In this document: positions 56,938 to 61,360 of the stretch, in pieces
Layout of the letters: each line of letters begins with the position of its first letter
How positions within the stretch are numbered: the first letter of the stretch is position 1
Assembly: GCF_001761485.1 (NCBI RefSeq)
Contig: NC_090774.1
Coordinates: 2,666,001 to 2,730,000, forward strand
Source: Yarrowia lipolytica
Lineage: Eukaryota > Ascomycota > Dipodascomycetes > Dipodascales
Direction: 5' to 3'
Length of the DNA: 64,000 bases
The notes under the pieces: model-generated
What the model saw: the letters and a program-made list of their open reading frames with translations, nothing else
What the model was told of the DNA's origin: nothing
Databases searched by the model: none
Translations under genes and position numbers: made by a program

Positions 56938-57460
56938 ATGGGTGTCTTGCTGTCTTGCTTAAGAGGGCCCGTTGAGGAAGACCCTCCTGGTGTGAGTATT
57001 CATTTGATTGCCGGCATCTTTTCCCCACACACTCTCTCTATGCAGATTACTAACCCAGATCTCCGAAAATGAACCTCTTCTTGGAAACAACACAATCGAC
57101 ACCACAGACGATAATGCAGTGGACCCTTCGGACCGCCAGAAACGCATGTCTAACCTGCATCAGATTGTGACGAGCACCGGCTCGAATCTCATCGACGTCG
57201 GCGCGGTGGCCCAGGTCGAATCCCCGAACGGCATCACCCAAAAACGAAGTGCCTCCGACTTCAAGCGCCAGCTGGACCCCGAAACAGGCATTGTGGTGCT
57301 TGCTAGCGATGCTTCTCACGTGAGCAAGGCCAACCTGAGCGAAAAGGACAAACAGGTGGTTTCCAAGCATGTCGGCAAGTTTGTGGAGCTGGTTGCCAAG
57401 GAGTCCAACGTCAAGCCGGTGGGAAAACTGGTGCAGAACTTTTCCGAGATTCAGTCGTAA
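56938..57460 (+). CDS. MEH1: EGO/Ragulator membrane anchor Meh1/Ego1 (LAMTOR1-like)
   Basis: Exon 1 is 56938-56991 (18 codons) and exon 2 is 57059-57460; the 67-base intron has donor GTGAGT and tail TACTAACCCAG. Product of 151 residues. Exon 1 gives MGVLLSCLRGPVEED, a myristoylation glycine plus palmitoylation cysteine, and exon 2 opens with ENEPLLG, the acidic-dileucine style of Ego1/LAMTOR1 (yeast Meh1 begins MGAVLSCCRN and has ENEALL). The rest is helical with RMSNLHQIVTSTGSNLIDV. It anchors Rag GTPases at the vacuole for TORC1 signalling. Without splicing, the lipid anchor would be lost. Identity is from pattern, well supported. Confidence 0.88.
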
Positions 57461-57779
57461 CCAACGGCGAGACTAGCATAGTGTATTTATATTGTTGTTG
57501 TTGACCTCAAGAATTGGAGCGTAGCGAATGGTCTTGTATAGCTTTTTCAGTACAAGTAACTAATTGTACTCGTGGTATCATGTTGTACAATGAAGCGTAC
57601 GGCTGTGGAATGCATTTATGTGTACAGCAGTGTAGTTTGTGTCTCGGAATCAGTCTTTCAATGGTTTCTGATGCATCTCTTGCTCTCCCTTGAAGCACTA
57701 CGAACACCTCTCGTCAAATATCCATGAAATTCCAACCTTTACTCCGGCGGAGTTCAATAATCAATAAAAATACACCTAA
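57461..57779. other. Convergent intergenic region MEH1 / TAF9
   Basis: 319 bases between two 3' ends, AT-rich, with a gtacaagtaactaattgtactcg element near 57552-57574. No gene seen. Confidence 0.6.
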
Positions 57780-58340
57780 TTAGACCGCATCCTTCATTTC
57801 CTTATCCTCATTGCTGCTGTTGTTATTGGTCTCTTCAGCTCCCTCAACAGTCTCTTCTTCCTCCTCGTCCAAATCCCACTCCTTGGCAGTGAGACAGTAC
57901 TTCTCCGGGGGCAGTCTCAAGCCGTAGCCAGGCTGTACCTGTGGCAGAGCTCGTCGGTTACGTTCCTGTGCCATCTCCAGAAGCAGTTCTTTGGGTGGTG
58001 CTGGCTTGAACTGGTAGTTGACTCGAGCAGCAATAGCCAGTCGCACGTCTTCCACTGACAGAGCCGACGTGGAAACTGCTGCTGCTGCTGCGTTGGCATT
58101 TCCGCCAGATCCGCCGGAAACAGGGCCCGTCTTGTCGTTGTGAGAGTTGTTGGCGGCCGCAGCATGGTCCGAGTACAGCAGTGCATCGTGCAACACGCCT
58201 TGTGTATATCTGTAGGCAAAGTCCATGAGTTGAAGAGGCACCCGTTCCTGGTACGAGGTGACGCCCATGGAGGCCAGAATCAGATGCAGCAGACGCACGT
58301 CTCGCGGTGTGGCTGCGTTTGGAAGATCACCCGATTCCAT
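57780..58340 (-). CDS. TAF9: TFIID/SAGA subunit Taf9
   Basis: 186 residues. The histone-fold domain occupies about residues 10-125: PRDVRLLHLILASMGVTSYQ, DFAYRYTQGVLHDALLYSDHA, an Ala/Gly/Ser/Asn-rich insert, and LSVEDVRLAIAARVNYQF. This is followed by the family's PPKELLLEMAQERNRRALP and a short conserved tail (YGLRLPPEKYCLT). The C-terminus is acidic. Taf9 pairs with Taf6 in TFIID and SAGA. The low-complexity insert lies between histone-fold helices and is longer than I would expect. No intron. Confidence 0.95.
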   Translation of the reverse strand: MESGDLPNAATPRDVRLLHLILASMGVTSYQERVPLQLMDFAYRYTQGVLHDALLYSDHAAAANNSHNDKTGPVSGGSGGNANAAAAAVSTSALSVEDVRLAIAARVNYQFKPAPPKELLLEMAQERNRRALPQVQPGYGLRLPPEKYCLTAKEWDLDEEEEETVEGAEETNNNSSNEDKEMKDAV

Positions 58341-58945
58341 GTGTGTGTCTGTGTGTGTTTTTTTGTGTGTCTTTCTGGTAGACGGTTATGAGTGTGAATC
58401 TTTCTGTCCTTCTGATAGAGTTGCATGTTGGATCGTGCATTATTAGGTTCAGGTTATGAGTGGTGGGTAGTGGGGAGGTGCTGGTGAATCAGGGACCTGA
58501 CATAACTCTTATAAAAGTCGCAGTTGAGGTCTTTTAAAAAAGAGAAAGATGCCAAAAGGAAGTAGTTGTGTACCATCTGAGGGATATGTTGTCACCTCTT
58601 TCAAAAAATCAGATCCCAGGCATATGTTATGACGTGCTTGGCTCCCCACATACACTGCAATCCCACCCAAGAACGTGGATACATGAATAATACAGTCACC
58701 AACTGGTTATGACTAGGTCAACGAGGCCAATTGCACCAATTGAGCGCGCTCGTGACGTCCCCGCGACCTCCCCCTCGCGCCCATCTCCCTGCGCCCACCA
58801 GTTCCAACGTGACATATATTGGTCCTGTTTAACATTATGCTCTTCCACGTAGCACCAACACGGTCCCAACAGTACGACTACTTAAGCACGCCTCCTTCCC
58901 TGTTACTGCCACCACACAGCACAACAGCACACGATACTATCCACC
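58341..58945. promoter_or_regulatory. Divergent promoter TAF9 / ER cyclophilin
   Basis: 605 bases. A TG-rich tract lies near 58341-58372, a TGACGT core at 58753-58758, acatatattggtcc near 58811, and a CA-rich leader (ccaccacacagcacaacagc) before the ATG. TGACGT is also part of unfolded-protein-response elements, but regulation is only inferred. No gene seen. Confidence 0.55.
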
Positions 58946-59632
58946 ATGAAACTGTTTGCCACCATTGGAGTTCTGCTCGTGGCTCTTCTGGCCTTCTTTG
59001 TCCAGCCTGCACAGGCCGAGCCCGACGCCGAAATCACCCACAAGGTCTACTTTGACATCAAGCAGGGCGAGGAATCGCTCGGAAAGATCGTCATGGGTCT
59101 GTACGGAGACGTGGTCCCCAAGACCGTGGAGAACTTCCGAGCTCTGTGCACCGGCGAGACCGGCAAGGGCTACAAGGGCTCCAAGTTCCACCGAGTCATC
59201 AAGAACTTCATGATCCAGGGCGGAGACTTCACCCGAGGAGACGGCACTGGAGGCGAGTCCATCTACGGCCGAAAGTTCCCCGACGAGAACTTCCAGCTCA
59301 AGCACACCAAGCCTTACAAGCTGTCCATGGCCAACGCCGGCCGAGACACCAACGGCTCCCAGTTCTTCATCACCACCGTGGTCACCAGCTGGCTCGACGG
59401 CAAGCACGTTGTCTTTGGCGAGGTTCTCGAGGGCCAGGACATTGTCGACGCCATTGAGAACGCCCCCACCGGCGCTCGATCCAACCCCAAGGTCGACATC
59501 ACCATTGCTGATGCCGGAGAGATCCCCGTGGAGAAGTCCGAGACCAAGGAGGCTGAGCCTGCCAAGGAGGACGCCAAGGAGCCCAAGAAGGACGTCAAGA
59601 AGAAGGGCAAGTCCGACAAGGATGAGCTCTGA
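58946..59632 (+). CDS. ER-lumenal cyclophilin (peptidyl-prolyl isomerase B type)
   Basis: 228 residues. Signal peptide 1-24 ([22 protein letters not shown]). The cyclophilin domain follows, about residues 32-195, with catalytic [49 protein letters not shown] and [13 protein letters not shown] Lys/Glu-rich tail ends in KDEL, an ER-retention signal. It catalyses proline isomerisation during secretory protein folding, like yeast Cpr5/Cpr2 and animal PPIB. Codon bias is strong. The stop is TGA followed by CTAC. The same frame stays open for 59 more codons, listed separately, so a longer membrane-anchored form is possible. Confidence 0.96.
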
Positions 59633-59812
59633 CTACATGGCTCCAAAAAGAAGGCCATTGAAATCTATGATAACCTGCGGGACCGTACCCAGGCCGTGTA
59701 CCAGCGGGAGAAGCACAACGCCAGCTGCTTTTTTGTTTTTCTCTTCACCGCCGCTTGTGTGATTGCCATCAAGGCCCGAGGGTCTAATGCTATCAAGCAG
59801 CGAGCTGAGTAG
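59633..59812 (+). CDS. Possible readthrough extension of the ER cyclophilin, with membrane anchor
   Basis: Directly after the cyclophilin TGA (59630-59632) the same frame runs 59 codons to TAG at 59810. No ATG opens it, and a stop lies at once upstream, so it is not a stand-alone frame. Codons are native in style (AAG, GCC, GAG, CAG, CGA). It reads LHGSKKKAIEIYDNLRDRTQ, then KHNAS (an N-glycosylation sequon), a hydrophobic helix CFFVFLFTAACVIAI and a basic tail KARGSNAIKQRAE. In a signal-peptide protein this predicts type I topology, with the sequon lumenal and the basic tail cytosolic. UGA-CUA is a known efficient readthrough context in fungi and animals. Alternatives: a weak intron from GTCAAG near 59594 to AAAAAG at 59650, which would remove KDEL and stop in frame, or the end of an unseen spliced gene. 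Confidence 0.55.
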   Translation, partial: LHGSKKKAIEIYDNLRDRTQAVYQREKHNASCFFVFLFTAACVIAIKARGSNAIKQRAE

Positions 59813-60097
59813 AGTAATGTAATCGAGAATATGTTCAAGTGATAGTACAAGAACGAGTACATACTGTAGCTGTATGTACACAATTGAGTGGTACATCTAC
59901 GTACTTGTATGGTATTAAAGGGTACAGTAATTTACCCGCATAGTATCTGTATACTGTCCAAGATCTGCCTGAATATGCATCTTTGTCTGAATGGGGTATA
60001 ATATATCAGGTTAAATGCAATGTCTATATGCTGGAGGGGAGAGATAGCTTCCAAGAATTTGTCGGCCCCCGATTCATTCGTCGGCTACCTCTTATTC

Positions 60098-61360
60098 TCA
60101 TTTCGTGTTGTTCTTATTGACCATGTTGATCAATGGAATGTCGTCTCCAGAGTCTTGGGCCTCGTCGTCATACTCATAGTGCTCCTGAGGAGGAGGCTGG
60201 AGATGTTGAGGAAGGTCGTACTGTGTGCGTTTTTGCTGTTGCTGACGCTGCTGCTTGATGTAGGCCTGGTTCTGGTCTCTGATTTGGACTTCCTTAGCCG
60301 CGGCCTCTCTGATCTTTTGCAGCACCTGTTTATTAAGGGGGAACTGGGTACCGTTGCCCCGGGCCGCTTCACTGGGCTGGATAGGCAGCAGCCACATCCA
60401 CCACTTGTCGCCCATGACGAGCTGGAAGTTGCGTTTCCAGCCCACGTCAAACACGTTTCCGACCGTCTTGGACGTAGGCGCAAACGTGTATCTGTATGCG
60501 GCAGTGGGCACGGCAGACCGGTACTGGGTGCTTTCCAGAAACTCGACCGTGCTCTGGTTGTTGAACACGAGGTAGAGCGAGAAGGTGGCAAACGTGCCGA
60601 CCGCGATGGCAAACACCAGTGCCAGGACCATGAGGATCATGACGTTGACGGATATTGCGCCCACGTAGTCTGTGTTTCCGTCCGGGCCGCGCATGGCACC
60701 AATCTCCAGAATGTGGTTGTAGAAGACAAAGCCCGTAGAGCCGAGACAGAAGAAACACAGAATTGTCACGTACCACAGAAACAGCACAAAGTACTTGTGG
60801 TTGTGGAACCCGATGGCCGTGGCAAACCAGGGGCAGTAGTGGTCAAACTTGAGCACGCATCGCTTGTAGTTTGAGCAGTGGTGTGATCGGTCCGGTTTCC
60901 AGCCGATGCATTTGGTGCAGAACCGTAGACCTCCATTCTCCTTGGCACACACGGAGTTAGCCATCTCTCGAGGAGGCGTGAGATGTTGGCCTTCGGCGCT
61001 GCATGCGTTCTGGTACTCAACCAGTGGCACCGAGAAGTTGTCGATGTCGGTGGGGCTTCCGGGGCCCACCTTGCATACTTTGAGATAGAGCACGTTGCAC
61101 ATGATGCCGATAGCCACGCCCGCCACGCCGTAGACGCGCCAGAAGGTGGTGTCGGACTCAAACAACTGCGGTTCCCAGCACACCAGCCATGCGTGGACCC
61201 AGCAGGCCCAGATGATGAGGAAATTGACGACGAGCGGCAGGAACGCCTTGGCGCCTATGAAGCACCATTTTTCGCATGCAAAGCAGCATTTGCGGCACTG
61301 CATTTCGGGGAGTCGAGTGTCGTGTGGCACGCGTAGGTTGGTGTGGTGATGGTGACGCAC
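60098..61360 (-). CDS. PFA3: Palmitoyltransferase, Pfa3-like, with DHYC active site
   Basis: 420 residues from the first ATG; the ATG at 61303 (MQCRKCCFACEKW) is an equally plausible start. Two membrane helices (FLPLVVNFLIIWACWVHAWL; WRVYGVAGVAIGIMCNVLYL) precede the Cys-rich zinc domain: FCTKCIGWKPDRSHHCSNYKRCVLKFDHYCPWF. Two further helices follow, with TTxE-like QSTVEF. The architecture and CIGWKPDRSHHCS wording fit Pfa3, which palmitoylates Vac8 at the vacuole. The active-site tetrad is DHYC instead of DHHC, a variant otherwise known from Akr1. The C-terminus is Gln-rich and acidic. Paralogue assignment is moderately sure. Confidence 0.88.
   Translation of the reverse strand: MRHHHHTNLRVPHDTRLPEMQCRKCCFACEKWCFIGAKAFLPLVVNFLIIWACWVHAWLVCWEPQLFESDTTFWRVYGVAGVAIGIMCNVLYLKVCKVGPGSPTDIDNFSVPLVEYQNACSAEGQHLTPPREMANSVCAKENGGLRFCTKCIGWKPDRSHHCSNYKRCVLKFDHYCPWFATAIGFHNHKYFVLFLWYVTILCFFCLGSTGFVFYNHILEIGAMRGPDGNTDYVGAISVNVMILMVLALVFAIAVGTFATFSLYLVFNNQSTVEFLESTQYRSAVPTAAYRYTFAPTSKTVGNVFDVGWKRNFQLVMGDKWWMWLLPIQPSEAARGNGTQFPLNKQVLQKIREAAAKEVQIRDQNQAYIKQQRQQQQKRTQYDLPQHLQPPPQEHYEYDDEAQDSGDDIPLINMVNKNNTK

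Follow-up and report, generated by a model that had tools for sequence, protein, structure and literature searches.

Readthrough of a UGA stop codon followed by CUA has been described in fungi and in mammals. According to the account in PMC4207609, readthrough in Ustilago maydis needs no more than UGA CUA, and UGA CU(A) is active in human cells, with functional examples in the fungal enzymes Tpi1, Art1, and Rpe1 and the mammalian enzymes LDHB and MDH1, where the stop precedes a conserved C-terminal extension that re-addresses the enzyme by appending a peroxisomal signal. Post-stop extensions of another sort are found in Drosophila, for which eight readthrough extensions with predicted transmembrane helices are described, with no endoplasmic reticulum (ER) retention signal in any extension (PMC3840789), and in Arabidopsis, for which 8 of 144 readthrough products are reported to have predicted transmembrane helices, conserved in relatives (PMC9293766). 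Readthrough that adds transmembrane helices is a kind of event already known. Membrane-associated cyclophilins of the secretory pathway have likewise been reported: Drosophila NinaA, going by two titles cited in PMC3433705 (Stamnes 1991; Colley 1991), is a cyclophilin homologue that is an integral membrane protein and is required for the synthesis of rhodopsin, and Saccharomyces cerevisiae Cpr4 (Group H) is given as a cyclophilin of the secretory pathway that has a putative transmembrane domain, its group being reported as absent from Yarrowia lipolytica (PMC1618848).

The cyclophilin B gene of Y. lipolytica shares with Tpi1, Art1, Rpe1, LDHB, and MDH1 the UGA CU(A) stop context and a conserved C-terminal extension; however, whereas those enzymes gain a peroxisomal signal, the extension here is a candidate membrane anchor on a lumenal ER enzyme and would bury its KDEL signal. 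A hydrophobic helix after the stop is common to this locus and the Drosophila and Arabidopsis cases, but the latter come from ribosome-profiling data and none is described as a KDEL protein, whereas the yeast case is known from sequence alone. The proposed anchored form would, by description, be a membrane cyclophilin like NinaA and a putative transmembrane cyclophilin of the secretory pathway like Cpr4, which is, however, encoded by a separate gene. Literature searches recovered no ER foldase whose KDEL is buried by readthrough, as judged by titles and abstract starts. For cyclophilin B combined with stop-codon readthrough they returned only a genetic code expansion paper, by its listing, and, by title, none of the nine papers returned on UGA readthrough in Yarrowia concerned cyclophilin. 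The titles listed for Yarrowia included no ribosome-profiling study, which we count against readthrough.

We analyzed a window of 64,000 nucleotides (to which the coordinates below refer) from a genome of 20.5 Mb in six contigs. The cyclophilin B gene (58946..59632, plus strand; 228 aa) is flanked upstream by a minus-strand TFIID-31kDa gene (57780-58340) and downstream by a DHHC palmitoyltransferase gene in convergent orientation (60098-61360). Its product has a cyclophilin domain (PF00160; E = 7.3e-50), an N terminus that looks like a signal peptide (judged by eye only), and, directly before the TGA, the ER retrieval signal KDEL, read from the codons at 59618..59629. A KDEL-type C-terminal signal of this sort, as carried by ER-lumenal peptidyl-prolyl isomerases, is also present in the five closest relatives fetched (P0004, P0006, P0016, P0028, and P0045). 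All of these end at KDEL and 0/5 are fused to the extension discussed here, which counts against readthrough, the five being protein sequences and not a count of genomes. The linker that precedes KDEL, a yardstick for the conservation beyond the stop given below, is identical to theirs at only 11/31 to 22/31 positions, and the annotated cyclophilin of Yarrowia sp. C11 is close to the one here but not identical (82%).

Direct reading bore out the layout given by the first-pass annotation: the KDEL codons are followed by TGA (59630-59632) and CTA (59633-59635), and the frame stays open for 59 sense codons up to a TAG (59810-59812), so that the in-frame post-stop extension, hereafter the tail, occupies 59633..59812 on the plus strand. 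It reads LHGSKKKAIEIYDNLRDRTQAVYQREKHNASCFFVFLFTAACVIAIKARGSNAIKQRAE. What had been called a Lys-rich linker amounts to SKKK only. An N-A-S sequon (59717..59725), which is N-A-T in the relative P0002 described below, adjoins the hydrophobic segment CFFVFLFTAACVIAI (59726..59770), whose summed 15-mer score is -3.06 on a hydrophobicity scale; such a segment is found only beyond the stop of cyclophilin B. A sequon so near a hydrophobic stretch is probably too close for glycosylation, and this feature, although present and kept in the relative, carries less weight than had been claimed for it. The C terminus, KQRAE (59795..59809; KHRAE in P0002), places Lys at -5 and Arg at -3, resembling the dibasic K-x-K-x-x signals for ER retrieval, in which Arg at -3 is the weaker variant. 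Beyond the tail, TATGTA (59873) and TACGTA (59898) are candidate 3'-end elements (59873..59903), a role that we assume from yeast 3'-end signals; each is absent from 59633-59812, and their position downstream of the tail favors readthrough.

The stop and its next codon (TGA CTA, 59630..59635) form a published high-readthrough context (PMC4207609), in agreement with the earlier claim that it is established in fungi and animals. It is not fully optimal, the next base being C and not the favored G. The comparison sample, drawn from 264 kb of this genome (the window together with 200 kb of contig C1), comprised 83 non-overlapping open reading frames (ORFs) with a minimum length of 200 aa: TGACTA ends 1/83 of these, namely, cyclophilin B itself, with about 0.4% expected from base frequencies. 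No outstanding RNA fold was detected 3' of the stop at three lengths compared with shuffles (z = -0.22, -1.00, and +1.00), which, like the C after UGA CUA, counts against readthrough. The pattern GAYGARYTNTGACTA has its sole exact genome match at G000:C5:2725621-2725635, and a control pattern read backwards also matches once; thus, the uniqueness of the match is not itself significant.

In the same sample, the post-stop frame is open for at least 59 codons in 7/83 ORFs, cyclophilin B included, so the openness that had been called unexpected for a chance 3' untranslated region is ordinary and was overstated; taken alone, it would suit a chance open frame. The codon usage is another matter, and here the first-pass annotation was right to see a coding style: with a codon score trained on genes of the same 264-kb sample, the tail reaches 21.0, the highest of the 83 post-stop frames (runner-up, 15.7; the remaining 81, at most 4.8), or 0.356 per codon, where the median for genes is 0.235. 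Over this stretch the two remaining forward frames score -22.8 and -20.2, and the antisense frames score 6.4 (mildly positive), -15.9, and -14.7. An 87-aa antisense ORF runs over the tail (59633-59896, minus strand) and probably just mirrors the coding strand. As a weaker control, among 14,852 overlapping stretches of 59 open codons taken from outside long ORFs, 217 (1.5%) score at least 21, in a pool that still includes short unmasked exons; 184 of the 14,852 contain a 15-mer as hydrophobic as that of the tail. By score, the first ten codons after the stop rank within the top 3.5% of intergenic 10-codon stretches that are open, which speaks for readthrough, and the first five sum to a slightly negative value, which speaks against it.

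A search of 5.8 billion proteins with the tail recovered one match, P0002 (49 aa; E = 6.3e-15), encoded on a 4418-base contig. The two align without gaps over 49 residues, the hydrophobic segment and the C terminus included, with 35/49 positions identical (71%). The juxtamembrane AVYQREKHNA is identical (10/10), the hydrophobic part, including the preceding Ser, is identical at 14/16 positions, and the C-terminal tail is identical at 9/13. The sequon is kept as a sequon (NAS/NAT) and the C terminus as K-x-R-A-E. The N-terminal ten residues of the alignment match at only 2/10 positions, but the differences are conservative (shuffle P = 0.0036). The conserved homolog practically refutes a chance open frame in the 3' untranslated region. 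The conservation of the post-stop frame, for which the first-pass annotation had looked to sister species, is thus seen at the amino acid level, in one relative only; the in-frame extension is conserved as protein to that extent. Nothing else speaks as strongly for a tail that is translated now or was until very recently, and by the sequence evidence it is very probably protein-coding. Even if the tail is an independent small protein, it is a conserved coding segment, and in our searches P0002 alone matched it significantly.

Beyond P0002, the tail itself is its sole match in its own genome, and it recovered no Pfam family; searched as a single sequence, it matched nothing in the PDB. A two-sequence profile gave seven weak PDB matches (best E = 0.088, Utp10), which we judge to be chance. 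A search for a fused cyclophilin-tail protein (about 159 to 505 aa) matched only the cyclophilin of the query itself at E values up to 10. Among the best 120 of 7951 cyclophilin matches, compared by the longest contig per row, none showed the 4418-base length of the P0002 contig, so the linkage of P0002 to a cyclophilin is unproved. One scan each with P0002 found DNA of the relative neither among 63 stretches of viral_contigs nor among 93 stretches of genome_contigs.

P0002 is a separate short ORF, and its Met aligns to Ile11 of the tail, which weighs against readthrough and suggests an alternative that we regard as possible but doubtful: that the tail is an independent single-pass small membrane protein of about 50 to 60 aa encoded directly 3' of the cyclophilin gene. 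It would have to start through an upstream exon joined by unusual splicing, from a near-cognate codon, or, were the assembly to differ, from a nearby ATG brought into frame. The free-standing relative fits such a protein, as does the very strong conservation of the juxtamembrane and hydrophobic parts, which would be natural in a small protein that binds particular partners and exceeds what a generic anchor requires, another point against readthrough. So does an ATG at 59637..59639 on the plus strand, four bases past the stop and one frame off the tail, where it opens a 41-aa ORF. However, the tail has no in-frame ATG, all four ATGs in 59561-59812 standing in another frame, and an independent gene would leave the TGA CTA context and the shared frame as coincidence. 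Moreover, P0002 is the sole such ORF found, although the database contains cyclophilins of several Yarrowia-clade sources. A single tail ORF beside five close cyclophilin B proteins is odd for an ordinary AUG-started gene, although short ORFs are called unevenly; it is what readthrough would lead one to expect, since the tail would then usually lack a start codon of its own. A gene caller could list such a start-less extension only where a start codon happens to stand in frame, which softens the objection drawn from P0002.

The missing in-frame start and the Ile that stands here in place of the Met of P0002 could also mean that a small gene has recently decayed here, losing its start codon in this species, and that the tail is translated no longer. 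We consider this unlikely: the frame has no stops, uses codons as genes do, and is strictly conserved in amino acid sequence, and its coding-like codons continue upstream of the position of the P0002 Met.

The first-pass annotation had also raised splicing between the end of the cyclophilin gene and the tail. A fusion protein much like the readthrough product would result if alternative splicing dropped the KDEL and stop and linked cyclophilin with the tail, and malate dehydrogenase isoforms arise by alternative splicing in Yarrowia. Canonical introns of Y. lipolytica are reported to begin with GTGAGT in 73.0% of cases, with 409/2421 introns non-canonical (PMC13309789), a proportion that leaves some room for an independent protein with an unusually spliced upstream exon. 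In a donor scan of 57000-59720, the cyclophilin coding sequence contained no site that matched GTGAGT with at most one mismatch. All 11 candidates, each with one mismatch, lie upstream of the cyclophilin ATG, among them GTGGGT at 58463, the fourth most frequent motif. No CTRAC followed by AG within 12 nt occurs in 58900-59900. The four branch-point-like words in 59400-59760 each have two mismatches to ACTAAC, and the two beside the tail stand 14-17 nt from an acceptor-like AG; CTAAC is reported to be present in >92% of introns (PMC2911113). As far as a scan of the DNA can tell, the usual Yarrowia splice signals are missing near the tail, so splicing ranks low. The same absence of a usual donor in the cyclophilin coding sequence and of a usual branch point and acceptor near the tail tells against a spliced start for an independent protein, and we hold the alternatively spliced fusion to be very improbable.

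The sequence, the frame, the stop context, and the conservation of the tail as protein in one relative are observed here. Taken together, they lead us to favor, at roughly even confidence, low-level UGA readthrough that would yield a membrane-anchored ER cyclophilin comparable to NinaA. This is the core of the interpretation offered in the first-pass annotation, of which one part stands, namely, a tail that is conserved, in frame, and placed after a known readthrough context with neither an in-frame ATG nor usual splice signals, and the other, passage of the stop, is a proposal. Under readthrough, most ribosomes would halt at the UGA and release soluble, KDEL-retrieved cyclophilin, and a minority would insert an amino acid at the UGA of the leaky UGA CUA and go on to append 59 residues. 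The hydrophobic segment, of about 15 residues, would then stop transfer at the translocon, giving what we infer to be a type I membrane protein with the cyclophilin domain in the lumen, KDEL internal and inactive, and a cytosolic, basic C terminus of 13 residues, in which Lys(-5)/Arg(-3) may take over retrieval from KDEL. Such a form might serve to keep the isomerase beside membrane-protein clients. The anchor of NinaA belongs to its normal ORF, unlike the post-stop tail here. More tentatively, a little short of even confidence, the readthrough could be programmed, switching the foldase between a soluble KDEL-retrieved form and an anchored one that hides KDEL within the chain and is retrieved through its dibasic tail in the cytosol. 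If readthrough does occur, the leakiness of a stop codon would set the ratio of the soluble to the membrane-bound form of an ER folding enzyme, to our knowledge an uncommon role for readthrough, and Yarrowia, which is without the Cpr4 group, would obtain from its cyclophilin B gene an anchored cyclophilin comparable to NinaA.

The comparison of post-stop frames also drew attention to the start of the window. The runner-up frame (score, 15.7) runs for 120 codons after a plus-strand ORF at 138-1142 and lies opposite a long S/T-rich ORF, of which it is probably a shadow. On the minus strand of this region (2-2805), two adjacent ORFs, 1762-2805 and 2-1765, overlap by 4 bases in different frames. 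The former has an adhesin-like N-terminal part by eye, and the latter is a long S/T-rich repeat region that is open at the window edge; a change of frame may have divided a single cell-surface gene into the two.
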